Part shown: piece by piece, positions 24,792 through 56,102 of the stretch | Numbering within the stretch: the stretch's first letter is position 1 | How the letters are laid out: every line of letters starts with the position of its first letter | Source: Nitrospirota bacterium | Lineage (GTDB): Bacteria > Nitrospirota > Thermodesulfovibrionia > Thermodesulfovibrionales > UBA1546 | Direction: 5' to 3' | Length of the DNA: 58,978 nucleotides | NCBI GenBank assembly: GCA_026387575.1 | Contig: JAPLLK010000064.1 | Span: 1-58,978, forward strand | Notes under the pieces: model-generated | Told to the model about the DNA's origin: nothing | The model's database searches: none | What the model saw: only the letters and a program-made list of their open reading frames with translations | Position numbers and translations under genes: made by a program

Positions 24792-24807
24792 TATGGTATA
24801 TTAATCT

Positions 24808-25536
24808 ATGTTTGTTATTCCTGCAATAGATTTAAAAGGCGGACAATGCGTCAGACTCCTTCAGGGGAAAGAAGATGCTGTAACAATATATTCGGATGAC
24901 CCTGCATCAACAGCAAAGAGATGGGAGGAATCCGGGGCAAAACTCCTTCATGTTGTTGACCTTGACGGCGCATTCACAGGCAACCAGAAAAATCTTGACG
25001 CAATAATAAAGATAAGGCAATCTGTATCCATTGATATAGAGGTTGGCGGAGGGATAAGAGACATAAAAAAAATAGACGGCCTCGTCAGCATCGGTATTAA
25101 CAGAATAATACTCGGAACTGCAGTGATAGAGAACCCTTCTCTCCTGAAAGATGCCTGTGCTAAATATCCGGGCAGAATTCTTGCGGGCATTGATGCCAAA
25201 GACGGCAGGGCCGCAGTAAAAGGCTGGGTTGAGATTACTGGCACTAATGCAAAAGACCTTGCGCAGGAAATGGAAAAGGCCGGAGCAGCAGGCATAATAT
25301 ACACTGACATATCAAGAGACGGCATGCTTGCGGGCCCGAATATCCCAGCCATGAAAGAAATGGTTGAAACCGTCAGCATACCGATAATTGCATCCGGCGG
25401 CGTGTCTTCCATCAAAGACATAATATCTTTGAAGGAGATTAAGAATCTCTGGGGTGTGATAACAGGCAAGGCTATTTATTCCGGAGCAGTTGACTTGAAA
25501 GAGGCTATAAGGATTGCTCAGTCTTCCGGTTTTTGA
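24808..25536 (+). CDS. hisA: Phosphoribosylformimino-5-aminoimidazole carboxamide ribotide isomerase
   Basis: MFVIPAIDLKGGQCVRLLQGKEDAVTIYSDDP...HVVDLDGAF, IASGGVSSIKDI. Confidence 0.98.
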   Translation: MFVIPAIDLKGGQCVRLLQGKEDAVTIYSDDPASTAKRWEESGAKLLHVVDLDGAFTGNQKNLDAIIKIRQSVSIDIEVGGGIRDIKKIDGLVSIGINRIILGTAVIENPSLLKDACAKYPGRILAGIDAKDGRAAVKGWVEITGTNAKDLAQEMEKAGAAGIIYTDISRDGMLAGPNIPAMKEMVETVSIPIIASGGVSSIKDIISLKEIKNLWGVITGKAIYSGAVDLKEAIRIAQSSGF

Positions 25537-25572
25537 CAGCGCTTTTACGTCGGGGGTATAATCAATTTAACT

Positions 25573-27882
25573 ATGAAAGCACGGGCTGTTGTTTTTCTGC
25601 TAATCATTTCAGTCATAACCGGCGTATCTGTCGGCGGGTATTTTGCGTTTGCAAAAGGAATTCCTTCCATAGCAGAACTAAAACAGTACAAGCCTACGTC
25701 AGGCACCAAGATATACGCTGATGATGACACGCTTATTGGAGAACTCAAAGTCGAGAAAGGCATTTTTGTGCCTCTGAACAGGATCCCAAAACAGCTTATA
25801 GATGCGGTTATAGCTGTTGAAGATTCAAGGTTCTGGAATCATAAAGGCATAGATTACATTGCAATCGGCAGGGCTGTTTTAAAGGATATTCTCCACGCCG
25901 GACTTAAAGAAGGCGGCAGCACAATAACCCAGCAGCTCGCAAAGGTTGTGTTCCTCACCCCTGAGAAAACATTTAAAAGAAAGGTCAGGGAGGTATCGCT
26001 TGCAATAAAGATGGAAAAGAATCTTGATAAAAAAGAGATACTTGAGCTTTATCTGAACAAGATATATTTTGGCCATGGCGCATACGGCGTTGAAATGGCG
26101 TCGCGCGTATATTTCGGCAAATCAGTGGGAGAACTGACTCTGCCGGAGGCGGCAATGATAGCTGCGCTTATAAAGGCTCCCTCCACATACTCTCCTTATA
26201 ACAACCTCACAAAATCAAAGGAAAGGCAGGAGACAGTCCTTTTGCGGATGGAAGAAGAAGGATACATCAAAAGGTCTGAAAGGGAGAAGGCGGCAAAGCA
26301 GTCTCTTTATCTCTCAACGCTGAGAAGGGGCATAGAGGCAAATAATTATTTTATTGAGTATGTCAGGAAATATCTGGAGGAAAAATACGGCGAAGAGACT
26401 GTCTATAAGGGAGGGCTGAAGGTTTATACCACGCTTGACAGGGGAATGCAGGCTGCCGCGCAAAAAGCGCTTCAGGAAGGACTTAGAGAGCTTGACAAGA
26501 GAAGAGGGTGGCGCGGCCCTGTAGAGCATAAGGATATAGATGTTAAAAAAGAGATGGAGAGCAGAGATGTGTACAGCGCTGCTATCGGAGGCGGTGATGA
26601 CATAACATCAGGGCTTGTCCTTAAAGTGAGCGAAACTGAGGCTGTTATTAAGACAAGAGGGATTATCGGCAGGCTGTCAATAGCCGATGCCCAGTGGGCA
26701 GGCAATCTTCTGGATTCAAAAACAAAGAAAACCACAACGATAAAAGGATTTAATTTAACAAAGATACTCAGGCCCGGTGACATTGTTAAGGTAAAGATTA
26801 AAGGCACCAAAGGGAAAGAGGTCAGCCTTGCCCTTGAACAGGAACCTGAAGTGGAAGGCGCAGTTGTGGCAATTGAACAGAGGACAGGGTTTATAAGGAC
26901 AATTATCGGTGGCTATGATTACACCAAGAGCGAATTTAACCGCGCAATCTATGCAAAACGCCAGCCCGGCTCTGCCTTCAAGCCGATAATATATGCTGCT
27001 GCAATGGATAACGGGTTTACGCCTGCATCCATAATAAATGACGAGCCTGTCACATATAAAGGCGGGCCAAAGGGTGACTGGACACCTGAAAACTATGACC
27101 ACAAACATTACGGGCCTACAAGGCTTAGGGAGGCGCTTGCGTATTCAAGGAATGTTGTAACAGTAAAACTCGTGGACGCTATAGGGGTTGATAAAGTTAT
27201 AAAATTCACACAGAACCTCGGGCTTGAAGGCGATATCCCACATAACTTAAGCATTGCTCTTGGCAGTCTGAGCGTAACTCCGCTTGAACTATGCTCAGGC
27301 TACAGCGTATTTGCCAACAATGGACAAAGAATGAACCCCCTTGCAGTAAAATACATTACTGATTCAAAAGGGAAGATACTTGAAAGCAACGAACCTGAAG
27401 GAATGCAGGCGATAAGCAATCAGACGGCATTTCTCATAACATCAATGATGCAGGATGTAATAAATTATGGGACAGGGTGGAGAATAAAGGCTTTAGGCAA
27501 ACCTGTCGCTGGAAAGACAGGGACAACAAATGAGTACAGGGATGCATGGTTTGTTGGATATACAACAGGGATCACTGCGTCTGTATGGGTGGGGTTCGAC
27601 GATGTGAGGCCTCTCGGTTCTCAGGAAACAGGGGCAAGGGCGGCATCACCGATATGGCTAAACTTCATGAAGTATGCATCAAACATCGTAGAATCTTCTG
27701 ATTTCTCTGTGCCGGAAGGCATTGTAATGTATCCTATAGACCCGTCAACAGGGCTTCTATCAAAGGAAACCTTGTTAAAGGAATATTTTAAAGACGGCAC
27801 ACAGCCGACACAATTCTCCACTGCTCCGCCTTCTCCATCTGGAGTAGAGAGAAAGGGTGTGCCTAATCCTGATTTCGATTAA
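25573..27882 (+). CDS. Penicillin-binding protein 1A (bifunctional transglycosylase/transpeptidase)
   Basis: 769 aa; EDSRFWNHKGID, EGGSTITQQLAKVVFL, RQPGSAFKPIIY, AGKTGTTNEYRDAWFVGYT. Confidence 0.97.
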   Translation: MKARAVVFLLIISVITGVSVGGYFAFAKGIPSIAELKQYKPTSGTKIYADDDTLIGELKVEKGIFVPLNRIPKQLIDAVIAVEDSRFWNHKGIDYIAIGRAVLKDILHAGLKEGGSTITQQLAKVVFLTPEKTFKRKVREVSLAIKMEKNLDKKEILELYLNKIYFGHGAYGVEMASRVYFGKSVGELTLPEAAMIAALIKAPSTYSPYNNLTKSKERQETVLLRMEEEGYIKRSEREKAAKQSLYLSTLRRGIEANNYFIEYVRKYLEEKYGEETVYKGGLKVYTTLDRGMQAAAQKALQEGLRELDKRRGWRGPVEHKDIDVKKEMESRDVYSAAIGGGDDITSGLVLKVSETEAVIKTRGIIGRLSIADAQWAGNLLDSKTKKTTTIKGFNLTKILRPGDIVKVKIKGTKGKEVSLALEQEPEVEGAVVAIEQRTGFIRTIIGGYDYTKSEFNRAIYAKRQPGSAFKPIIYAAAMDNGFTPASIINDEPVTYKGGPKGDWTPENYDHKHYGPTRLREALAYSRNVVTVKLVDAIGVDKVIKFTQNLGLEGDIPHNLSIALGSLSVTPLELCSGYSVFANNGQRMNPLAVKYITDSKGKILESNEPEGMQAISNQTAFLITSMMQDVINYGTGWRIKALGKPVAGKTGTTNEYRDAWFVGYTTGITASVWVGFDDVRPLGSQETGARAASPIWLNFMKYASNIVESSDFSVPEGIVMYPIDPSTGLLSKETLLKEYFKDGTQPTQFSTAPPSPSGVERKGVPNPDFD

Positions 27883-41309: not shown

Positions 41310-42362
41310 TTAAACCCATATTTTTATAAATCCTGTCAGCACTATATTGAACAGGGCTAATGGTATTAATATCTTCCACCCTATAGCCATAAGCTGGTCA
41401 TACCTGTATCTCGGGAAAGTCGCCCTGACCCAGTAATAAAAAAACATAAAGGCATAAACCTTTATCAGAAACCACACAATACCTGGCACATTCAGCAAGA
41501 AAGGCATTGCATCCATAATAAACTTCGGGATTGTCCACCCTCCTAAAAAACACAACGCTGCTATAGAAGACATTATCAGCATCGCTGTGTATTCGCCGAG
41601 GAAAAATAGTGCGAACCTGAATCCGCTGTATTCTGTAAAATACCCTGCAACAAGTTCGTTTTCAGCCTCCGGCAGATCAAAAGGGAGCCTGTTTGTCTCA
41701 GCAAATGCAGCCACAATAAATACAAAGAAACCTAAGAACTGAGGGATGGCAAACATGCCTGCAGGATGTTGTTGCTGCGCCCTGACAATATCGGACAGGT
41801 TCAGAGAGCTTGCCATCATCATAACTCCTACAAGGCTCAGTCCCATTGCAATCTCATAACTTATTACCTGTGATGCTGCCCTCAGTCCGCCAAGGAATGA
41901 ATATTTAGAGTTTGACGCCCACCCCGATAATATAATTCCATAGGCTCCGAGAGAAGACATTGCAAAAAGAAAAAGCAGGCCTATATTTATATCAGCTATC
42001 ACAAAGCCATCGAAAAACGGAAGCACAGACAATGACGTGAGAGCCGAAACCATGAATATGACAGGCGCAAGATAGAACAACGGCTTATCTGCATTCGCAG
42101 GTATAATGTCTTCCTTGAAAAAAAGTTTCACTCCGTCAGCAATCGGCTGTAAAAACCCATGCCAACCTACTTCAATGGGGCCAAGCCGTACCTGCATGTG
42201 GCCTATTACTTTGCGCTCCCAGTAAGTTGCATAAGCCACATGAAGAAGCGTTATGCCAAGAACAACAGCGATCTTTACGAGAATAATCCCAATATCTATC
42301 CCAAGCTTAATCATAGGGTTCATTCCAGCCGCATTACCTATAAACTGAAAAATGTCGTTCAT
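41310..42362 (-). CDS. nuoH: NADH-quinone oxidoreductase subunit H
   Basis: WERKVIGHMQVRLGPIEVGWHGFLQPIADGVKLFFKE, RLPFDLPEAENELVAGYFTEYSG. Confidence 0.98.
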   Translation of the reverse strand: MNDIFQFIGNAAGMNPMIKLGIDIGIILVKIAVVLGITLLHVAYATYWERKVIGHMQVRLGPIEVGWHGFLQPIADGVKLFFKEDIIPANADKPLFYLAPVIFMVSALTSLSVLPFFDGFVIADINIGLLFLFAMSSLGAYGIILSGWASNSKYSFLGGLRAASQVISYEIAMGLSLVGVMMMASSLNLSDIVRAQQQHPAGMFAIPQFLGFFVFIVAAFAETNRLPFDLPEAENELVAGYFTEYSGFRFALFFLGEYTAMLIMSSIAALCFLGGWTIPKFIMDAMPFLLNVPGIVWFLIKVYAFMFFYYWVRATFPRYRYDQLMAIGWKILIPLALFNIVLTGFIKIWV

Positions 42363-45031
42363 AAGCCAGCCTTCTCTATAGCTACTGTATTCCCATCCAG
42401 AACAGAAGCCCTTGTAACAGGCTCTATATCATAGCCCATCAATCTGTATGCACTCTTGCCTTCAAAATTATTAGTGAGCATGACTGAAAAATTGTCTAAT
42501 GCTTTATCGATAACCACAGGCAGTTCAATTGAACCAATCTTTGTGGAAACCCTGACAACTTCACCCTCTTTAAAGGAAAGCGCCTTAGCTGTATCCGGAC
42601 TTATTCTTACAACAGCCTCAGGATATATCTTCACAAGTGCAGGGGCCCTTCTGCTCAAAGTGCCTGAATGGAATAGCGGCCTCTCAATCCTAAGATAAAG
42701 TTTCCCGTTAACACTAAGTCTCTCTGCATTATGCACCTGAATCTCTTCCATCCCATCCCTTAATGGTTCTCCTTTATAAGGATAGATTCCCCCACCCTTT
42801 TCTATATCTTCATATGTAAGGTCTTTATGTAACGGAGATGCCTTGCAAATCTCATTGAATATATCTTCAGCATTGGAGTAATCGAACTTCTTACCCATAT
42901 TCCTTGCGATCTCAGAAATTATCCTCCAGTCCTCCATCCCATTCCCGTTCACTGCCTTTCTCAATCTTTGAATCCTTCTTTCCATATTTGTGAATGTCCC
43001 GTCTTTTTCAGCCCAGCTCAGTGCAGGCAGAACAACATCGGCAAGCTTTCCTGTTTCTGTAAGGAATATATCCTGAACAACAAGAAACTCAATATTTCTA
43101 AGCGCTGCTTCCACTGTCTTAGAATCAGGAAGGTTATAGACAGGGTTTTCACCCATTACATACATCGCTTTCAGAGAGCCGTTCTTTGCAGCATTAACCA
43201 TCTCAAATATCGTGAGCCCTGTTTTTCCTGGGAGTTCGCTTTCCCATATACTTTCGTATCTCCTTTTGGATTCAACATAGGACACAGGTCTATATCCCGG
43301 CAGTATATCAGGCGCGCATCCCATATCAAGAAGGCCCTGCTCATTCGCCCTATCAGAGAGGAGATAGAGCCTGCCGTTAATAAGATAGTTTATTGCTGAT
43401 AGGAGCAAGAGCTTGTAGCTTGCTCCATTGCTCTGTGCCGTCTCCTTACCTATTACTATTGATGGGTTTGTGGATTCTGAAAGGATATTCAAAAACTCAT
43501 TAAAGTCTTTCTCTTCGATTTTGCAGATATTCTTTACATCCTCGATGGAAGTGCTTATATCCTTTATCTTTGCCTCAAGTTTAGAATTTGCATCCGAAAG
43601 TCTCTTCTTATTTTTTAATACAGTAACAATACCTTCAAGCAGAATATCTTCTGTGTACAAGACTGGTACAAGCTTTTGTGGACTGAAATATTCAAGACCT
43701 TTAAAATTTCCGATTGTGAGTATGTTACCACCATTTCTTGAACATGCCCTTATCTGAAGCCCGAGGATAGGATTTACTGTTGTTGGGTCCCCGCCAATCA
43801 CAAATACAAGGTCAGAATTTGAAAGACCTGATATTATGTTTGCTGTTGCACCCTGCCCAAAGATATTCTCTATAAAACTCTGGGCGCCTGCAAAGCCTGT
43901 CCTTGCAGTGCTGTCAATGTTATTTGTCCCGAGCGCAACTCTCATAAATTTCTGGAATATATAATTGTCCTCATTCGTGCATCTCGGTGAGGCAATGCCA
44001 GCTATTGCAGGGTTGCCATACTCCTCTTTGATCTCTGACAGTTTTTTTGCAACAAGGCTTATGGCCTCTTCCCATGTCGCTTCTCTGAAGAGTTCGGAGA
44101 TTACCCCCCCTTGACTCCCCCCCTTATCAAAGGGGGGCTGGGAGAGTGTTGACTCCTGACTCCCGACTCCTGACTGTGTCTTGGGAGCTATCCTTACAAG
44201 AGGTGTTGTCAGTCTCTCTTTGCTTCCTACAAACTCATATCCGAATCTCCCCCTCGTACAGAGAAGCCCATTATTAACAACAGAACCGATTCTGGGGACA
44301 ACCCTCTTAATCACATCATCGCGAACCTGAACAATAAGAGTACATCCAACCCCGCAATAGGGACAGATTGTCTCTATCTCATTCTCCATCTGCCATGGCC
44401 TGAAGCTGTGCCTGTGAAGCCTTGACATAATTGCTCCGACAGGGCATACAGAGATGCAGTTCCCGCAGTATTCGCAATCATATTTGCCGCCCGAGAAAGG
44501 CTCAATATGAGAATGGCCTCCCCTGCTTATAACGTCAATCGCCGAGGCGCCCTGAACCCCCTCGCACATCCTGACGCATCTGGTACACATAATACATCTT
44601 TCCATGTTGCGAACAATAATCGGGTCTTCGAGGCTTTCAGGGACTTTTCTCTTCTTTTCTTTATATCTACCCTTTGCAGGCCCGTATTTTCCTACAAGGT
44701 TCTGCAATTCGCACTCTCCTGCCTTATCGCACACAGGACAATCAAGCGGATGGTTAATAAGCAGAAATTCGAGGATGCCTCTCCTGACATTGGCTGTCTG
44801 CTCTGTCTCTGTCCTGACAACCATTCCGTCAGCAACCATAAAAGTGCAAGCTGTCTGCAACCTCGGCATCTTCTCAATCTCAACAAGGCACAATCTGCAA
44901 CCGCCGTATCTTTCAAGCTGTTCATGCCAGCAGAGCGTAGGTATCTTTATGCCTGCGGACCTTGCAGCCTCAAGCACAGTGACAGGTTTTTCTAATTTAA
45001 TCTCTTTGCCGTCAATGGTAACTGTAATCAT
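42359..45031 (-). CDS. nuoG: NADH-quinone oxidoreductase subunit G (molybdopterin oxidoreductase fold)
   Basis: 890 aa; N-terminal 2Fe-2S, CPVCDKAGECELQ, ferredoxin motifs, CPYCGVGC. Confidence 0.96.
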   Translation of the reverse strand: MITVTIDGKEIKLEKPVTVLEAARSAGIKIPTLCWHEQLERYGGCRLCLVEIEKMPRLQTACTFMVADGMVVRTETEQTANVRRGILEFLLINHPLDCPVCDKAGECELQNLVGKYGPAKGRYKEKKRKVPESLEDPIIVRNMERCIMCTRCVRMCEGVQGASAIDVISRGGHSHIEPFSGGKYDCEYCGNCISVCPVGAIMSRLHRHSFRPWQMENEIETICPYCGVGCTLIVQVRDDVIKRVVPRIGSVVNNGLLCTRGRFGYEFVGSKERLTTPLVRIAPKTQSGVGSQESTLSQPPFDKGGSQGGVISELFREATWEEAISLVAKKLSEIKEEYGNPAIAGIASPRCTNEDNYIFQKFMRVALGTNNIDSTARTGFAGAQSFIENIFGQGATANIISGLSNSDLVFVIGGDPTTVNPILGLQIRACSRNGGNILTIGNFKGLEYFSPQKLVPVLYTEDILLEGIVTVLKNKKRLSDANSKLEAKIKDISTSIEDVKNICKIEEKDFNEFLNILSESTNPSIVIGKETAQSNGASYKLLLLSAINYLINGRLYLLSDRANEQGLLDMGCAPDILPGYRPVSYVESKRRYESIWESELPGKTGLTIFEMVNAAKNGSLKAMYVMGENPVYNLPDSKTVEAALRNIEFLVVQDIFLTETGKLADVVLPALSWAEKDGTFTNMERRIQRLRKAVNGNGMEDWRIISEIARNMGKKFDYSNAEDIFNEICKASPLHKDLTYEDIEKGGGIYPYKGEPLRDGMEEIQVHNAERLSVNGKLYLRIERPLFHSGTLSRRAPALVKIYPEAVVRISPDTAKALSFKEGEVVRVSTKIGSIELPVVIDKALDNFSVMLTNNFEGKSAYRLMGYDIEPVTRASVLDGNTVAIEKAGL
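44104..44178. repeat. Two abutting short repeat types inside nuoG
   Basis: ccccccttgactcccccccttatcaaaggggggctgggag + tgactcctgactcccgactcctgact. Confidence 0.75.
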
Positions 45032-45168: not shown

Positions 45169-46440
45169 TTAAACTCTCAAACTTTTAAATTTACACTTCC
45201 CATCTTTTATATGTTCCTCAAACTCATTCCTGAAATGTTTTATGAAATTTTGGACAACAGATGCTGCTCCGTCTCCAAGCGGGCAGAAAGTCTTGCCAAG
45301 CATATTTCCTGAAACAGAAAGCAGAAGCTCTATGTCTCCTTCCACGCCTTCGCCGTTTTCTATCCTTTCAAGAATACTTCTCAGCCAGCCTGTGCCTTCA
45401 CGGCATGGCGTGCATTTGCCGCATGATTCATGCTCAAGGAATTTCAGCGCCCTATGGCAGACTTTTACAAGGCAGACTGTTTCGTCCATCACAATCACAG
45501 CGCCTGAGCCAAGCATGCTCCCGTGCTTTGGCATACTTACAAAATCCATAGGACAGTCTATCTTGTCCGCAGGAAGCACCGGAGTCGTAATCCCGCCGGG
45601 AAGCACAGCCTTAAGATTCTTCCCGGCCTTAATTCCTCCGCAGTGCTTATAGATTATGTCGCGCAGGATTGTACCCATAGGCAGTTCATAAACACCGGGT
45701 TTTTCAACATGACCGCTTACACAATACAGCTTTGGCCCCGGGCAATCGGAACTCCCGATCTTTGAATATTCTTCATCGCCAATTTCTATAATAAGGGGAA
45801 TATTTGACAGCGTCTCTACGTTATTGATAACAGTAGGTTTCGCAAAAACTCCCACGTTTACAGGAAACGGGGGCCTCATCCTCGGCTGTCCCTTATCTCC
45901 CTCCAGTGATTCTATTAAAGCGGTTTCTTCACCGCATATGTATGCGCCTGCGCCGCGATGAACAGCGAGATGAAACTTTATGCCCTTCCCTAAAATATCA
46001 TCACCGAGAAAATTGTTTTCATATGCCTGAGCGATTGCCTTGTTCAGGATATGATATGCGCCAGGATACTCGCCTCTCAGGTATATGTATCCGTACTGTG
46101 CTCCGATCGCGTAACCTGCTATGACCATTCCTTCTATCAGAAGATGGGGATTTTTCTCAAGTATAGGCCTGTCCTTGAAGGTGCCTGGCTCTCCTTCATC
46201 TGCATTGCATAGGAGATATTTCGGAAATTTCGTATCAGCGTAGGCAAACGACCACTTCATTGCAACAGGAAAACCTGCTCCGCCCCTTCCCCTTAACCCT
46301 GCTTTTTTCACTATATCAGTTATGTCGAGCGGCTTGTAGTCAAACGCTTTCAGAAGACTCCTGTATCCGCCAATTTTTTTATACTCGTTAATATCGGCTG
46401 AATTCGGGTTTTCTATGTTTTTTAATAAAACCTTTTCCAT
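45169..46440 (-). CDS. nuoF: NADH-quinone oxidoreductase subunit F
   Basis: GLRGRGGAGFPVAMKWSF, CNADEGEPGTFKDR, ESCGKCTPCREGTGW. Confidence 0.98.
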   Translation of the reverse strand: MEKVLLKNIENPNSADINEYKKIGGYRSLLKAFDYKPLDITDIVKKAGLRGRGGAGFPVAMKWSFAYADTKFPKYLLCNADEGEPGTFKDRPILEKNPHLLIEGMVIAGYAIGAQYGYIYLRGEYPGAYHILNKAIAQAYENNFLGDDILGKGIKFHLAVHRGAGAYICGEETALIESLEGDKGQPRMRPPFPVNVGVFAKPTVINNVETLSNIPLIIEIGDEEYSKIGSSDCPGPKLYCVSGHVEKPGVYELPMGTILRDIIYKHCGGIKAGKNLKAVLPGGITTPVLPADKIDCPMDFVSMPKHGSMLGSGAVIVMDETVCLVKVCHRALKFLEHESCGKCTPCREGTGWLRSILERIENGEGVEGDIELLLSVSGNMLGKTFCPLGDGAASVVQNFIKHFRNEFEEHIKDGKCKFKSLRV

Positions 46441-46494: not shown

Positions 46495-46959
46495 CTATTT
46501 GTATTTCTCCAGTATTTCCTCTATATACTTTTCCGTGAGATTCTCATAAAAATCATCATCCACAAGCATTGCCGGAGCTGTGCCGCATGCGCCTATGCAT
46601 TCCATAATGACAAGTGAAAACCTTTTGTCAGGAGTTGTCCCTCCGGTTTCAAGCCCGTATTTATTCTTAAGGAAGTCTGACAGTTTCTCTGCGCCGAGTA
46701 TCATGCATGAGACATTTGTGCATAGCTGGACAATATGCCGCCCCATGGGCTTATGCTTATACATTGCATAAAATGTCCCCACTCCTCTTGCAATTGCCCT
46801 TGGAACACCGAGAGCATCTGAAACAGCTTCATATGCATCAGCTCCGAGATACCCGAATTCTCTCTGTGCAATATAAAGAGCAGGCAATAGCGCAGCGCTC
46901 GCATCAGGATACTTCTGCCTTATCTCATTTAGTTCTTTTATCGCTGCTTTGCTCAACAT
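46495..46959 (-). CDS. nuoE: NADH-quinone oxidoreductase subunit E
   Basis: GVGTFYAMYKHKPMGRHIVQLCTNVSCMILGA, CIGACGTAPAMLVDD. Confidence 0.96.
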   Translation of the reverse strand: MLSKAAIKELNEIRQKYPDASAALLPALYIAQREFGYLGADAYEAVSDALGVPRAIARGVGTFYAMYKHKPMGRHIVQLCTNVSCMILGAEKLSDFLKNKYGLETGGTTPDKRFSLVIMECIGACGTAPAMLVDDDFYENLTEKYIEEILEKYK

Positions 46960-46987: not shown

Positions 46988-47455
46988 TTATTTGCTCTTC
47001 CTGAACATCATGTGCATAAGGTCCATATATTCTCTATTAGTTTTTCTGACTATCCCTGTAAGGTGCATTGCAAGTCTGCGTAATATCTTGAAGGCCATGG
47101 GAAGATTTGAATGCACAATATTATCAAAAGCTGATTTCCCTATCTGTATGACCCTTGACTTTTGTTCTGCGATAATTGTTGCGTCATGTTTGATTTCATC
47201 AAGGAATGACATAATACCGAATATGCCTCCCTTTTCAAGTGTTATAATCCTATATTGGTCGCCTTCTCCGGTCATCTTATTTACACCCACCTTGCCGCTT
47301 ACTACAATATAAAGCTCACTGCCGCTGCTTCCTTCCTTAAAGATTATGTCACCTGCCTCGTATTCCTTTACCTGTACTGACCCCTTCAGCATCTCTATTT
47401 CAGAGTCGTCCAGGTCACTGAAGAAATATATTTCGCGTAACTCTTTATTTTCCAT
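46988..47455 (-). CDS. Cyclic nucleotide-binding (CAP_ED) domain protein
   Basis: YEAGDIIFKEGSSGSELYIVVSGKVGVNKMT...EKGGIFGIMSFLDEIKHDATIIAEQKSRVIQI; no C-terminal HTH recognised. Confidence 0.88.
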   Translation of the reverse strand: MENKELREIYFFSDLDDSEIEMLKGSVQVKEYEAGDIIFKEGSSGSELYIVVSGKVGVNKMTGEGDQYRIITLEKGGIFGIMSFLDEIKHDATIIAEQKSRVIQIGKSAFDNIVHSNLPMAFKILRRLAMHLTGIVRKTNREYMDLMHMMFRKSK

Positions 47456-47471: not shown

Positions 47472-48662
47472 TTACCTATCACATTCTCCCAAGACTATAT
47501 CAATAGTCCCTATGTTTGCGATAACGTCTGCGACAAATCCACCCGCGCATAATTTCGGCAGAATTGATGCATGAACAAAAGAGGGCGCTCTCACTCTCAT
47601 CCTGTATGGCTTGCCGGTGCCGTCGCTTACAAAATAAAATCCGAGTTCCCCTCTGGGGACCTCTGTAGCAGAATATATCTCTCCTTCAGGAGCAATAGGA
47701 CCTTTTGTTATGAGAACAAACTGATGTATGAGATGTTCTATGTCCTTTAAGACCATATCTTTAGGAGGCAGGGTGAACTTGGGAGAGGCAGCCATTACAG
47801 CTCCTGTTGGCAGTTTTTCAATGCACTGTTTAATTATCCTGTTTGCCTGCTTCATCTCGCCAATTCTGACAAGATACCTGTCATAGCAATCTCCGTTTTT
47901 CCCCAAAGGGACATCGAACTCAACCCTGTCATACGCATCATAAGGAGCATGTTTTCTTACGTCATAGTTCACGCCTGAGCCCCTCAGCATACCGCCTGTA
48001 AGCCCCCAGTTTACGGCCTCTTCTGCGGAAATAACACCTATGCCGACTGTCCTCTTCTTCCAGACCCTGTTTTCAGTAACAAGTGTTTCATAGTCATCCA
48101 TTCTGTCAGGAAACTCAAGAACAAACTCGTAGAGTTCATCAAGAAATTCCTGTGAAATGTCGTTCCGTACACCGCCAATCCTCGGATAACTTACCGTAAG
48201 CCTCGCCCCGCACAATGTTTCAAAAAGGTCAAGAATGCGCTCTCTTTCCCTGAATGCATACAAAAATGGAGTTGTTAGGCCTATATCAAGGACATGTGTC
48301 CCAAGCCATATAATGTGGCTTGAAATCCTTCCCATTTCAGCGACCATGGTTCTGATAAACTTTGCCCTTTCAGGCGCTTCAATGCCAAAAATTTTTTCAA
48401 CAGCATTTACATAGCCGACCTTGTTGTTCATGGATGATATGTAATCGAGTCTGTCGGTTAGGGGAAGCGCGGAAAAATATGTCCTGTTTTCTCCGAGTTT
48501 TTCTATCCCCCTGTGGAGATAACCAACATGAGGAGTGCATTTAATAACAGTCTCGCCGTCAAGGGTAAGCACAAGCCTAAGAACCCCATGGGTTGCCGGA
48601 TGCTGGGGCCCCATGCTGATGGTTAATTCTCTTGTCTCAAATGTCTTTTCTATCTGTTCCAT
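47472..48662 (-). CDS. nuoD: NADH-quinone oxidoreductase subunit D
   Basis: [32 protein letters not shown]-terminal DIVLGECDR. Confidence 0.98.
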
Positions 48663-48733: not shown

Positions 48734-49282
48734 CTATTCATGCCATTCGAAATCTTTAAATCTCTTTGCCTTGTCAAGAACTGCTCTAAACCCTGACCAT
48801 TCCTTCTCTGGCCCCTTCACAGGATAATCCTTTCTCAGTGGATGCCCTTCCCAGTCCTCAGGCATAAGGACTCTCCTGAGATCAGGATGCTCTTTAAAAA
48901 TAATCCCGAACATGTCATAACATTCCCTTTCATGCCAGTTTGCTCCGGCCCATACAGCGGTAACAGAATCAATCTCAAGACTGCTCTCAGGCACTGCTGC
49001 CTTTAACCTTATTGCATGACAGCGCTTTATAGAATAAAGATGATAGACAATCTCAAACCTTTTTTCTTTCTTTCCCGCATAATCCGCACCGCATATATCA
49101 ACAAGATAGTCAAAGCAAAGATCAGGGGCGTCGTGGAGATGCCTGCATATTTCAAGGATTCTGTCTTTCTTTAATGTAACAGCGGCCTGTTCCCTGAATT
49201 CCTTTACCTCAAGGACTTCATCCGGGAATTTCTCCTTTATCTTGTCTGCAATCTCTAATGGCTTCATCTCCACCTGCTCCAT
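48734..49282 (-). CDS. nuoC: NADH-quinone oxidoreductase subunit C
   Basis: [45 protein letters not shown]. Confidence 0.97.
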
Positions 49283-49791
49283 CTGAAGCGCTCTTTCTTT
49301 ATCTTTTCCTGAAGCTTTATTATCCCTTCAAGCAGAGCCTCCGGCCTCGGAGGACAACCCGGAATATAAACATCAACCGGCAGGAAACTATCACATCCCT
49401 GCACTGTACTGTAGGTATTGAATATGCCTCCTGAACATGCGCAGCTCCCCATTGAAATAACATATCTTGGTTCTGGCATTTGGTCATAGACCCTTCTAAC
49501 AATTTCTGACATCTTTTTCGTTACAGTGCCTGCGACAATCATGAGGTCGGCCTGCCTTGGAGATCCCCTGAAGATAACCCCCATCCTGTCCAGGTCATAG
49601 TGTGACGATCCCGCCGTCATCATTTCAATGGCTCAGCATGCAAGCCCAAAGGCCACGGGCCATAAGGACGAGCTTCTTCCCCAGTTGATGAGCTTGTCCA
49701 TTGAGGTGATAACGATATTAGGCGACAATATTTTTGTGCCTTTTTCAACCTCAACAAGCGATGGAGAAATTGTGTTTTCAATCAATCCCAT
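49264..49791 (-). CDS. nuoB: NADH-quinone oxidoreductase subunit B with in-frame UGA at codon 53 (plus-strand 49633-49635); selenoprotein or nonsense-mutated
   Basis: [52 protein letters not shown][UGA][38 protein letters not shown]... Confidence 0.93.
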
Positions 49792-50153
49792 TTAAATGCC
49801 TCCTTTTCCCATGCATAGACATAGCCGACAAACAGTATCACTATAAAAATAATCATCTCAATAAATGCATATAGTCCAATCCTGTCAAAGACAACAGCCC
49901 AGGGGTAAAGGAAAATAGCCTCGACGTCAAAGATAACAAAGAGCATAGCAACAATATAGAACTTAACAGAGAACCTGTATCGCGGCTCTCCGACAGGCAG
50001 GTTGCCTGATTCATAAGGCATAAGTTTTTCAGGGTATGGCCTTTTCAGTCTGAAAAGTTCACCGATTAATAAGGCGCCCATTCCAAAGACCGTTGCGACC
50101 ATCAAAAATATAAGAACAGGCAAATAATCCGAAGGCAAATAAGTTCCTGGCAT
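49782..50153 (-). CDS. nuoA: NADH-quinone oxidoreductase subunit A
   Basis: [42 protein letters not shown]. Confidence 0.97.
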
Positions 50154-51411: not shown

Positions 51412-53988
51412 TTAATCCTTACCCTTTTGTTCCAATTTATCCTCAAGGTCGCTTCCGAAAACTTCCTTTATCAGCCTTCCATCTCTCAAATATTGAAAAA
51501 ACCCTGTATAACTATTGGGACTTAAAAAGTGGAAAATATATTTCTGCTTAATTCCTGATTCCTCAAGCTCTTTATTTAGGTCTGAGAAGTGCTGCCTTGT
51601 CCATCTTAACTTTGCTTTGTTTTCATCAGAGTCATCACCATCTGACTTTACTTCCACAACTACAATATAGTCTATTCCGCCATGATGAATTTTGATGAAA
51701 AAATCAGGATTAAATTGTTGGTTTTTTTGAGGATGTTCACCTTTTCGCCATGAATACTCAACGCTGTAAAATCCTTGATCCCTTGACTTTATCCATGAAT
51801 CAATCTTTTCTGCATTGTCTTTCTTGCATAAATGTTCAACAAACCTTCTTTCAGGTTCTGCCCGTGTAAAAATAATACCAAGAGGGGTTTTAAAAAGGTA
51901 TTGGTTAATTTCTTTCTCGGCGCTCTTAGGCAGACTTTCATCGGTTTTTATTTCTTCGAGGATATCTTTTATTTCCTCCAGCAGTTCGTCGTCAAAGCTA
52001 TCTGCATAAAAAACTGTCGCATTATGTCTCAGATTTCCAACAGCCATAGATTCTTTATCCATATTCGCAGTCAAGATAGGCTGGGGTTTGGTGACCTTTC
52101 TTACATTTACTATGGTCTTTCCCTTTTTTCTTAAAAGCGTTCCGAATGTCTGAAGTATTCTCTGCCTGTTTTTCTCTACAAGCCGATCACCTTTAATTCC
52201 CCTCCTATCCATAGATGTCCTGATGATTTTTCTTATCTCATCCTTAGGAGGCAATTCATTTTTAGTATATTCGCCTTCAGGCAGTTTCAGAACACGCCCC
52301 TCCCACTCCCTCGTTTTAAATTCCTCGTAAATCTTATTTACGATTTCATCAACGCTGTAAGTGTTGTATTCTATTAATGTATTTTTTGCATAAACCTCGC
52401 CTGCAAGACTGGTATATTCTGTGCCTTTTTCATCATCCTCTACCTGCGATATAAGCTCAATAAATCCTTTTGTGTAGTCAAAGACCTCTGTATCACGGCT
52501 TGCCTCTTTCTCCTGAGGCTCTTTGTCATAGTTGATGTTGCAAAGGGCAAAATTGTATTTTGCCCTATCGCCTTCCTTTAGGACAGAGCTTGTTAATTTC
52601 ATCTCTATTTCTAGGATTTCATCTACAAGTCCTTTTATATTCCGGCTCCATGCGTCATGATTGAATACCTTTACTCTTGGCTGCGGCGTCTGGTATTCAG
52701 GCGGCACTCTAAGACCTCTTCCTAAGACCTGTGCTATTAATAACTTTGAATTAAATGCCCTATCTTTCCACGGAACGATCTGGAAAACATTATTTACATC
52801 CCACCCCTCAGTAAGCATAGACACAGATACAATCCACTCTGTTGAATCGTCTTTGTCATCAACATTTTTGAGCCTTGCCGCATTTGCCCTATGCTCCTGC
52901 GCAGAGGTAACTATCAAAACCTTCTTCTCAACTTCCCCCCTTGGCAGAGATTCTTTTTTTGATAAAAATCCCATGAGGTCTTCAGTCAATCTTTTTGCAT
53001 TTGTGATATCGTTTGTAATAAGGATAGTTAAGGGCTTTATTTTTCTGTATTTATTTTGATTCTCAATATGATTATCATAAATTTTCTGAAATTTTTCAGG
53101 GTCACCGATGCTTTCATCCTTGCTTACATAATCCACCATCTTGACTACTTTGTCATCTACTGCCTGTCTCAAAGAATATCTGTAAATGACATCGTTAAAA
53201 TACTCGTCTTCAATATATGCCGTTCCCGTGAAACCGACCATATACATAAAGTTGTAATCCGCACTCAAAAGGAAATCTTTCCATTTCTTAATATCCTGAC
53301 TTTCTCTGTCTCTGCCTGAAACTTTATTGTAGACATGGTGAACCTCATCACTTAAAACCAAGACCTTTGCCCCATTGCTCATAAGGCTGTCCTTTATGGA
53401 TGAACCTGTTTTTTCATAAACTGCATGGATATTTTCAACGCAAATATCACCGTCTTTTATAGTGCTGTTTGCGTCTATAATACGGGGATTCTTATATGCT
53501 GCATCTTTAGGGATTGTCTGTTTTAATCTGCTATCTCCGCTTAATGAAATAAACTTCTCCATAAGTCCCTTCTCTATAGTCAGGGATGGGCATAGCACAA
53601 GAACCTTGTCCACAAGTCCTAATCCGAGCATTATCTGGGCAATGCCATAAATAACATAGCTCTTGCCCGTACCTGTGGCTAAGTCAATGGTTGCAGAAAG
53701 CTTGTTGGACAGTTGTAAATGATGAAAATACTCGTTTATATCTCTATATCTGGTGTGCAGTTCGGGATTTTTATCCCAGTTTTCCCTGACCAGATCCTCA
53801 ATTGATTTATACCTGCCTGATGCGAGATAAATAATAACATTCTCTATAGCTTCACGCTGATACTGCCTGTCTCCACAGAGGACATCAAGGAATCTATCCC
53901 ATCTTGAAAGATCAAGCCTTGCGGGATCATAAGATTTGCTGACCTCTAAAACAAGGTCTTTTGTGTTATAAGTCTTTATCTCAATCAT
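51412..53988 (-). CDS. Type III restriction endonuclease subunit Res
   Basis: 858 aa; ATGTGKSYVIYGIAQ, LSDEVHHV, TEGWDVNNVFQI, C-terminal FNPDFFIKI...YIVVVEVKSDGDD nuclease-like motif. Confidence 0.92.
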   Translation of the reverse strand: MIEIKTYNTKDLVLEVSKSYDPARLDLSRWDRFLDVLCGDRQYQREAIENVIIYLASGRYKSIEDLVRENWDKNPELHTRYRDINEYFHHLQLSNKLSATIDLATGTGKSYVIYGIAQIMLGLGLVDKVLVLCPSLTIEKGLMEKFISLSGDSRLKQTIPKDAAYKNPRIIDANSTIKDGDICVENIHAVYEKTGSSIKDSLMSNGAKVLVLSDEVHHVYNKVSGRDRESQDIKKWKDFLLSADYNFMYMVGFTGTAYIEDEYFNDVIYRYSLRQAVDDKVVKMVDYVSKDESIGDPEKFQKIYDNHIENQNKYRKIKPLTILITNDITNAKRLTEDLMGFLSKKESLPRGEVEKKVLIVTSAQEHRANAARLKNVDDKDDSTEWIVSVSMLTEGWDVNNVFQIVPWKDRAFNSKLLIAQVLGRGLRVPPEYQTPQPRVKVFNHDAWSRNIKGLVDEILEIEMKLTSSVLKEGDRAKYNFALCNINYDKEPQEKEASRDTEVFDYTKGFIELISQVEDDEKGTEYTSLAGEVYAKNTLIEYNTYSVDEIVNKIYEEFKTREWEGRVLKLPEGEYTKNELPPKDEIRKIIRTSMDRRGIKGDRLVEKNRQRILQTFGTLLRKKGKTIVNVRKVTKPQPILTANMDKESMAVGNLRHNATVFYADSFDDELLEEIKDILEEIKTDESLPKSAEKEINQYLFKTPLGIIFTRAEPERRFVEHLCKKDNAEKIDSWIKSRDQGFYSVEYSWRKGEHPQKNQQFNPDFFIKIHHGGIDYIVVVEVKSDGDDSDENKAKLRWTRQHFSDLNKELEESGIKQKYIFHFLSPNSYTGFFQYLRDGRLIKEVFGSDLEDKLEQKGKD

Positions 53989-53990
53989 GG

Positions 53991-56102
53991 CTATTTCTTG
54001 ACTGATAAAACTTCTTTAAATTCATTTCCATAAATATCCACATAAACGACCATTATCTTATCCCCGCAATCCTCTTTATTCAAAGGGATAACGAGCCTAT
54101 CAAGGCGTTTCAAGTCTTCTTTAATCTCGTCTTCATTTTGTTCATCTTCTTTTTCGGTCTTCTTTTTCTTTGGCAGCAAGTCCTCTGCAAAATAAAACTC
54201 ATCCATAACAAATTCCCTGTCGTTGTAATCATTATCAATCAGAGCCATTGCAAGAGACTCAAAGTTTTTCAGTTCACTGCCTGTTTCTTCTTCAAGATAG
54301 TTGGAAAGAAATTTGGTGATATGGATTTCCATATTTCCACTTTTTTTTACAATTTTTGACTCTACATCCGGCTGTCTTATAAAGTGAAATCCTATGGCAT
54401 CATCAAGGTCGTTGACATTTTTTTTACTTTGAGGCTGTCTAAATTTCTTAAACTGCACCTTATGAAGCTCTTTTATTATTTGATATGGCACTTTCAGGAA
54501 ATAGTATTTCGTTTTGTCTATTTCGTGATAATCGCTTATAAAATCCACATAATTTGCAGGGGCAATGATATAGAGCCTTCCTCCGACCCTTTTGCCGATG
54601 TTTGAATGCAAGTCCTCAAGATATTCCTCATCCACCGATGCCTTTTTAAACTCCCAGTAAGGATAGATAACCGCATAGTATCCATCCTTCTTTTGCCCGT
54701 CTATCTTTATGCCTCCGATTTTTTTGTTAACAGGCTCTACTTCAAAAAGGTTCATCACAAACTTGATGTAATCATCGTTTTTAAGTTTAAAAACCTTCTG
54801 CAAATCGTAAAGCCCAGTGTTAACGGTTACAAAACTTCTTGCTTTTTTGCCGTATTTCTTTTTGGGTTTTTCCAAATCCTTGCTGTTCTGAATGGTTAAG
54901 ATTCTTTTCTGCATCGTATAAAAAGACAGCTTGCCGATATCGCACGCAATCCACCGCCTGCCGAGCTTTTCAGCTACTGCAGGGGTAGTTCCACTCCCAG
55001 CAAAAAAATCAAGGACGAGGTCGTTCGGCCTGGAAGCTGATAATATTACTCTTTCAAGTAACTCTTCGGGGTTTTCTGTAGGATAGCGAGCACTCCGCAC
55101 ATAACCTTTCACATCTGTCCAGTTAGAATCTACAGGTGTTTCTTCGGTTTGTAAATATTCTGGCACTCCTTTGTGTTTATTACTTGCTAAATCAGTCCAT
55201 GAATCGTTGTTTTCAATTCGAATACGCCCATCTTCAGCCATCTTGTTGATTTTTTCTTGAGAGAATGTCCAATGCCGTCCTCTTGGGGGTAACAAAACCT
55301 TTTCGAGAATTGTTCTCTCCGGTGGATTTCGCAATCCTGGAGATGACATTGGTAACCATTGAGGCTCAGCCTTTTGACCACAAAATGAACAAATTCTACT
55401 TCTAAATATTTCGTTAAACAACACATTCCCAGAATTTGAATAAAAGAAAATACAGTCTGTGGCATGATTAAATTGGTTTAAGTCCCTTAATTGTCTTTTG
55501 AAACGATTAATTACTATTTCATTCCTAAAATTACATCGGTCGAAAATTTCATCCATCGCCATTTTGATATAGTACCCAAAATGATAATCAAGACGAATAA
55601 AAATGCTTCCATCATCAGCTAAAATTTCTCTGGCAAGAATTAGTCTTCTTCTCAAAAATTCTACAAAATCAGCACCCTTTCTCTTTGCACTATATGCACT
55701 CCGCCCATTACCACCGTCATATTCATCGCCAGTCCCGAACGGCGGATCAATATAAATCAACTTGACCTTGCCTTTTACCTTATCCTTTATCAAAGGGTCT
55801 TTATTTTCACAGACTGTCTTTAAAAATTGCAGATTGTCACCAAAGACAATCATATTGCGCCAGTCTTTATCGCCTGCCGGATACTCCTCTCCGTTGAAGA
55901 CCTTTTCAACCTGCAAAGGCACAGGGAAAACACCGTCTTCATTTGCGAGGATGTCTTCTTTCCGCATCTTGCCGGCATATACAAGCTCATATTCCTTTTG
56001 CTTTGTAGGGAAGAGTTTGTACTTATAATCAGCCGGAATAGGCTCGCCTTTTTGGAGAGTCTTAACTAAAAACTGAATGTCGTATTCGTTCAGCTTGTTC
56101 AT
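53991..56102 (-). CDS. Type III DNA methyltransferase subunit Mod
   Basis: 703 aa; LIYIDPPFGTGDEYDGG, LVLDFFAGSGTTPAVAEKLGRRWIACDIG. Confidence 0.95.
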   Translation of the reverse strand: MNKLNEYDIQFLVKTLQKGEPIPADYKYKLFPTKQKEYELVYAGKMRKEDILANEDGVFPVPLQVEKVFNGEEYPAGDKDWRNMIVFGDNLQFLKTVCENKDPLIKDKVKGKVKLIYIDPPFGTGDEYDGGNGRSAYSAKRKGADFVEFLRRRLILAREILADDGSIFIRLDYHFGYYIKMAMDEIFDRCNFRNEIVINRFKRQLRDLNQFNHATDCIFFYSNSGNVLFNEIFRSRICSFCGQKAEPQWLPMSSPGLRNPPERTILEKVLLPPRGRHWTFSQEKINKMAEDGRIRIENNDSWTDLASNKHKGVPEYLQTEETPVDSNWTDVKGYVRSARYPTENPEELLERVILSASRPNDLVLDFFAGSGTTPAVAEKLGRRWIACDIGKLSFYTMQKRILTIQNSKDLEKPKKKYGKKARSFVTVNTGLYDLQKVFKLKNDDYIKFVMNLFEVEPVNKKIGGIKIDGQKKDGYYAVIYPYWEFKKASVDEEYLEDLHSNIGKRVGGRLYIIAPANYVDFISDYHEIDKTKYYFLKVPYQIIKELHKVQFKKFRQPQSKKNVNDLDDAIGFHFIRQPDVESKIVKKSGNMEIHITKFLSNYLEEETGSELKNFESLAMALIDNDYNDREFVMDEFYFAEDLLPKKKKTEKEDEQNEDEIKEDLKRLDRLVIPLNKEDCGDKIMVVYVDIYGNEFKEVLSVKK

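Follow-up and report, generated by a model that had tools for sequence, protein, structure and literature searches.

In-frame UGA at a cluster N2 cysteine of NuoB: a probable selenocysteine ligand in bacterial complex I

In complex I, the NADH pump of respiration, the final [4Fe-4S] cluster is N2, which hands electrons to quinone. Its strained ligation by tandem cysteines in NuoB (NDUFS7/Nqo6) has for a long time been suspected to be flexible and to take part in the chemistry. Selenocysteine (Sec) is a rare 21st amino acid. C85 of Y. lipolytica, which stands first in the tandem pair, is described as the most mobile N2 ligand, near the quinone-ligating tyrosine (PMC8042128); a change in N2 coordination on reduction was seen in the isolated arm and not in the intact enzyme (PMC7613608). 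The pKa is 5.2 with selenium, compared with 8.3 with sulfur (PMC10779653).

Bacterial selenoproteins such as FdhA and SelD combine an in-frame UGA, a hairpin (bSECIS) at an accepted spacing of 16-37 nt downstream of the UGA (PMC13188914 Fig 2) with a G in the first two loop bases, and SelA, SelB, SelD and tRNA-Sec. The locus described here is alike in all of these, and differs in that Sec in NuoB is proposed to ligate an electron-transfer cluster rather than to act as a catalytic redox thiol. HdrA (CxxU) and a 2Fe-2S CopZ-family protein (CU motif) are listed as selenoproteins (PMC13188914 Table 1); both are comparable as Fe-S selenoproteins, and the CU motif resembles the Cys-Sec order found here, but they are different proteins and complexes from NuoB. 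NuoB (NADH-quinone oxidoreductase B, PF01058) was not found among the families in the 2022 and 2026 selenoproteome inventories or in deep-Sep (PMC13188914, PMC9312934, PMC12013277). The selenoprotein NqrE (NADH:ubiquinone oxidoreductase subunit E) has a similar name in these inventories. It corresponds to COG2209, is part of Na+-NQR and has no relation to NuoB of complex I. No earlier report of Sec in NuoB or in complex I was found in the open-licence literature, and one may exist elsewhere.

The stretch of DNA analysed (the window) is 58,978 nucleotides from an uncultured Nitrospirota bacterium of the order Thermodesulfovibrionales. It is contig 85 in an assembly of 98 contigs and 1.63 Mb that is 92% complete. 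It carries nuo genes in the order nuoA-B-C-D-(cNMP gene)-E-F-G, with nuoB between nuoA and nuoC. The features needed below are as follows.

49782-50153, reverse strand: nuoA, whose 3' end overlaps the nuoB start and whose stop is TGA
49264-49791, reverse strand: nuoB, complex I subunit B (NCBIfam NF005012, TIGR01957; PDB NDUFS7/Nqo6)
49636-49638, reverse strand: Cys52 (TGC), first cysteine of the N2 tandem pair; TGA, predicted to be Sec, in relatives
49633-49635, reverse strand: in-frame UGA, codon 53, second cysteine of the N2 tandem pair and proposed Sec (alignment with the tandem CC of solved complex I)
49603-49619, reverse strand: SECIS-like hairpin TGACGG-CGGGA-TCGTCA (sequence, folding, codon conservation in TGA relatives)
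49441-49443, reverse strand: Cys117, third N2 ligand, in MGSC (sequence, homology)
49354-49356, reverse strand: Cys146, fourth N2 ligand, in IPGCPP (sequence, homology)
48734-49282, reverse strand: nuoC, whose start overlaps the nuoB end
47472-48662, reverse strand: nuoD (operon position, homology query)
46495-46959, reverse strand: nuoE (named from sequence)
45169-46440, reverse strand: nuoF (named from sequence)
42359-45031, reverse strand: nuoG (named from sequence)

The gene between nuoD and nuoE (46988-47455, reverse strand) is, judged from its sequence, like those with a cyclic-nucleotide-binding domain. The nuoB frame (49791-49264) has 176 codons including its final stop, itself TGA, and would give a product of 175 residues if the internal UGA were read as Sec. 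The product matched NF005012 at 257.9 bits (cut-off 116) and TIGR01957 at 245.9 bits, and among its many solved homologues in the PDB the closest chains were complex I NDUFS7/Nqo6 (E about 1e-64 to 1e-60). The local reading is FGLA-C(52)-UGA(53)-AIEMM. The spacing 52/53/117/146 is that of the E. coli N2 cysteines, which we take to be 63/64/129/158, and the UGA is therefore the second residue of the tandem pair. The gene is thus like NuoB with a tandem Cys-Cys in its family match, its place in a nuo operon with N-module genes and all four N2 positions (Cys52, codon 53, Cys117 and Cys146), and differs in that one tandem ligand is a UGA, where homologues have Cys. The frame is conserved past it, with 122 further codons, as the initial annotation had proposed when it placed a UGA at 49635-49633 over the second tandem cysteine of an otherwise intact NuoB. 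All the remaining nuo frames seen in the operon are intact.

Downstream of the UGA, the arms TGACGG (49619-49614) and TCGTCA (49608-49603) enclose the loop CGGGA in a hairpin of 6 bp with one G-U pair, which agrees with the 5-bp stem and loop at about +19 described initially (the 5-bp reading being the same stem without that pair). The loop begins 19 nt past the UGA, compared with 22 nt in genes with the order Sec-Cys, and both spacings fall inside the bSECIS range. By its energy alone the window's hairpin is ordinary (z = 0.16; p = 0.16 against synonymous shuffles). It is about 1 kcal/mol weaker than that of relatives (-5.0 versus -5.9), a G-U replacing an A-U; the minimum free energy was -5.0 to -7.2 kcal/mol depending on the stretch folded, compared with -6 to -11 for the same hairpin type in relatives and a cut-off of -7.5 or lower in the bSECIS model. 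An Rfam search at low threshold gave no relevant match on the nuoB strand. The case for Sec depends on relatives.

The genome encodes SelA (629 bits), SelB (387 bits), SelD (355 bits) and tRNA-Sec (68.1 bits; gathering score 47), the machinery for which the initial annotation had suggested a search. Its selD (L160, G000:C23:32365-33291) has its own in-frame TGA before AAK, as in Sec-containing SelD, and selenophosphate synthesis itself therefore seems to depend on UGA decoding. Of 15 carriers of a TGA nuoB that are more distant, 13 had SelB above cut-off. Within the order, presence of the machinery discriminates little because it is near universal there (SelA in 152 of 177 genomes). The second intact nuoB that had been named as a counter-indication was not found in the 92% complete assembly; two other NuoB-like matches (on C72 and C59, 38-48%, at contig ends) are hydrogenase-type small-subunit pieces, and the piece on C59 adjoins a NuoCD-like hydrogenase large subunit.

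The family was represented by 16 genomes; apart from the window's, seven of them carry a nuoB with TGA, always as TGA-TGC, at the first tandem cysteine. The pattern is present in many families of the order, at least 37 of whose 177 genomes have a TGA nuoB, and in a scan of GTDB r220 (one genome per species) 56 stretches matched the nuoB motif with TGATGY. These span Nitrospirota and Thermodesulfobacteriota (many titled Deltaproteobacteria) and include the isolate Thermodesulfatator autotrophicus S606, which is in culture. A nuoB sequence is also common to L120, the Thermodesulfovibrionales isolate Yes70-26, and a member of the window's genus (G015). In a control on 396 Nitrospirota genomes, TRR at the first codon of the pair gave 35 matches, of which 35 were TGA (no TAA, TAG or TGG); TRR at the second codon gave one match, the window. 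None of 395 genomes of the phylum of T. autotrophicus had TGA at the second codon. Sequencing error cannot produce this pattern. UGA at the pair is shared by relatives, with no TAA or TAG in its place in the control, but the window's UGA lies one codon later. All 59 distinct relatives with TGA have the Sec codon in first place in the pair, and the window alone is Cys-Sec; the position of Y. lipolytica C85 is predicted to be Sec in the relatives, and the window has its Sec codon at the next one. The initial annotation had looked to relatives for a conserved TGA and hairpin, and both are there, but the codon is the first of the pair throughout, which had not been foreseen.

The TGA genes lie in nuo operons. 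In 52 of the 59 distinct TGA-TGY genes nuoA, nuoC and nuoD are on the same locus, with at least one of the three in the other seven, and 122-128 codons are kept after the pair, with the sole exception of L093, which runs off its locus. Two genomes (G033 and G051) each hold two TGA-TGC copies of nuoB. L097 (HyVt-111) has a highly diverged TGA-TGT nuoB with no convincing hairpin, in a genome whose SelB is below cut-off, and is taken to be an incomplete bin or artefact.

In most of the TGA genes a short stem-loop lies right after the pair, with a G within the first two loop bases. The stem is retained while its sequence varies by group (TGACGA-CGGGA-TCGTCA; TGGCTGCT-GGA-AGCAGCCA; TGGCTTG-CGGGT-CAAGCCA; GGCTGC-AGGT-GCAGCC; and others), and L143 differs from L131 by a double synonymous compensatory exchange, U-A to A-U (five sequences, and not significant alone). 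The 26 TGA-TGY genes that encode TTGSSH all do so with ACG ACG GGN TCG TCA CAC, at a mean DNA identity of 76%. Their third-position difference is 0.00 at the stem codons and 0.28 at the loop Gly codon; at the same codons it is 0.53-0.74 (about 65%) in 14 Cys-Cys genes with the same peptide, and over the rest of the gene it is equal in the two sets (0.52 and 0.53). Local energy relative to synonymous codon shuffles had a mean z of -1.87 in TGA genes and 0.10 in Cys-Cys genes, the low energy being restricted to the hairpin site and to TGA genes, with values near zero elsewhere. In L095-type and L098-type genes the hairpins are weaker or bulged, and within the tested stretch they do not exceed synonymous shuffles. 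A test of maximal stems that left energies aside gave a weak signal because bulged stems score badly, and the energy and codon tests were used in its place. The hairpin is in place and under selection in the family, and the window has its stem, loop and spacing.

These observations are best explained if the window's nuoB belongs to a clade in which UGA, read as Sec, encodes one of the two adjacent N2 cysteines, a reading to which we give a probability of about 0.82. The nuoB of this clade most likely encodes a selenoprotein with Sec as an N2 ligand, as judged from sequence comparison.

In a DNA tree of the genus with the pair masked, the window stands beside L010, in a neighbourhood of both Cys-Cys and Sec-Cys relatives; support for L010 as its sister is only moderate (94/85). 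The near relatives L010, L011, L012 and L021 are all TGC-TGC. L010, the nearest, has an intact hairpin, suggesting that Sec was lost and then regained one codon later. A protein tree requires at least 13 changes among the three states, and its starred branches force no fewer than five changes of the Sec-Cys label; Sec was therefore often gained or lost. The Cys-Cys nuoB genes of L010, in the genus, and L071, in the order, keep the full SECIS-type codons ACG ACG GGA TCG TCA CAC and are apparent recent Sec losses; other Cys-Cys genes have ACT ACG, a first decay step. The window's Ala at -5 is otherwise unique (Thr in 84 of 86) and could signal relaxed constraint; its Ala at +8 is likewise unusual. 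These facts are compatible with a real shift of the Sec codon and, less probably, with an error on a gene that is Cys-Cys.

Such an error is the alternative that survives best. The family would contain Sec elsewhere, this lineage would be Cys-Cys, and the A at 49633 would have arisen on TGC through faulty sequencing or assembly, or would be a polymorphism of the strain. The TGC-TGC state of all four near relatives, the occurrence of TGC-TGA in no other genome of the two phylum scans and the division of the assembly into 98 contigs are consistent with this. However, the error would have to give exactly TGA, exactly at an N2 cysteine, beside a retained SECIS-like hairpin and in a genome with the full Sec machinery, and the remaining nuoB frame is clean; we consider it unlikely, though not negligible. 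Of the two options, Sec or error, between which the initial annotation had left the choice, Sec is thus favoured by the machinery, the relatives and the absence of a second nuoB, with base error in this genome keeping a small share. That the UGA is a real stop, by a nonsense mutation that broke nuoB in this lineage, is very improbable: the unusual alanines at -5 and +8 and a nuoB end branch that is the longest in the genus clade (0.073) would be in keeping with it, but the 122 later codons are conserved, the rest of the nuo frames seen are unbroken and the searches gave no substitute nuoB. Given SelB, tRNA-Sec and a hairpin at a suitable distance, the UGA should also be read through at least some of the time. 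It is barely conceivable that the whole genome has reassigned UGA, or that Cys or Trp is inserted there with no selenium. UGA read as Cys would also place an in-frame UGA at a cysteine position, but nuoA and nuoB both terminate in TGA, so that TGA is not a general sense codon here, tRNA-Sec, SelA, SelB and SelD are present, and only UGA genes show the constraint on the hairpin.

With the UGA read as Sec, SelA, SelD and tRNA-Sec would make Sec-tRNA, and SelB, bound to the hairpin just after the codon, would deliver Sec at the UGA. The ribosome would then continue to a full NuoB in which selenium replaces sulfur in one of the four N2 ligands, at the first of the pair in relatives and at the second in the window's genome. 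The likeliest history is that the genus lost Sec (TGA to TGC) with the hairpin kept, and that a single further change of TGC to TGA (C-to-A) in the next codon let the same hairpin decode Sec one residue later. It is reasonably likely, with somewhat less confidence than for Sec itself, that a selenium form of complex I exists in two phyla, that one hairpin serves either N2 codon, and that Sec moved from first to second, probably through a Cys-Cys state that kept the SECIS element. If so, a working enzyme can have selenium at either of the two tandem positions that ligate N2. As a hypothesis for the gain, selenium may tune the N2 potential or ease movement of the strained tandem ligand in anaerobes.

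Closely related enzymes offer Sec-Cys, Cys-Cys and one Cys-Sec form, and because selenium has a lower pKa and other redox properties, comparison of these forms probes the role of each tandem ligand. Annotation may also treat TGA nuoB genes as defective, and complex I would then be overlooked in these anaerobes. When the window was scanned for further frames with TGA readthrough, the one long candidate (24802-27879) proved to be a pair of ordinary genes side by side, one hisA-like and one for a penicillin-binding protein. At 51412-56102 on the reverse strand, two adjoining genes resemble, by their sequence, a type III restriction-modification pair (helicase/nuclease and DNA methylase).
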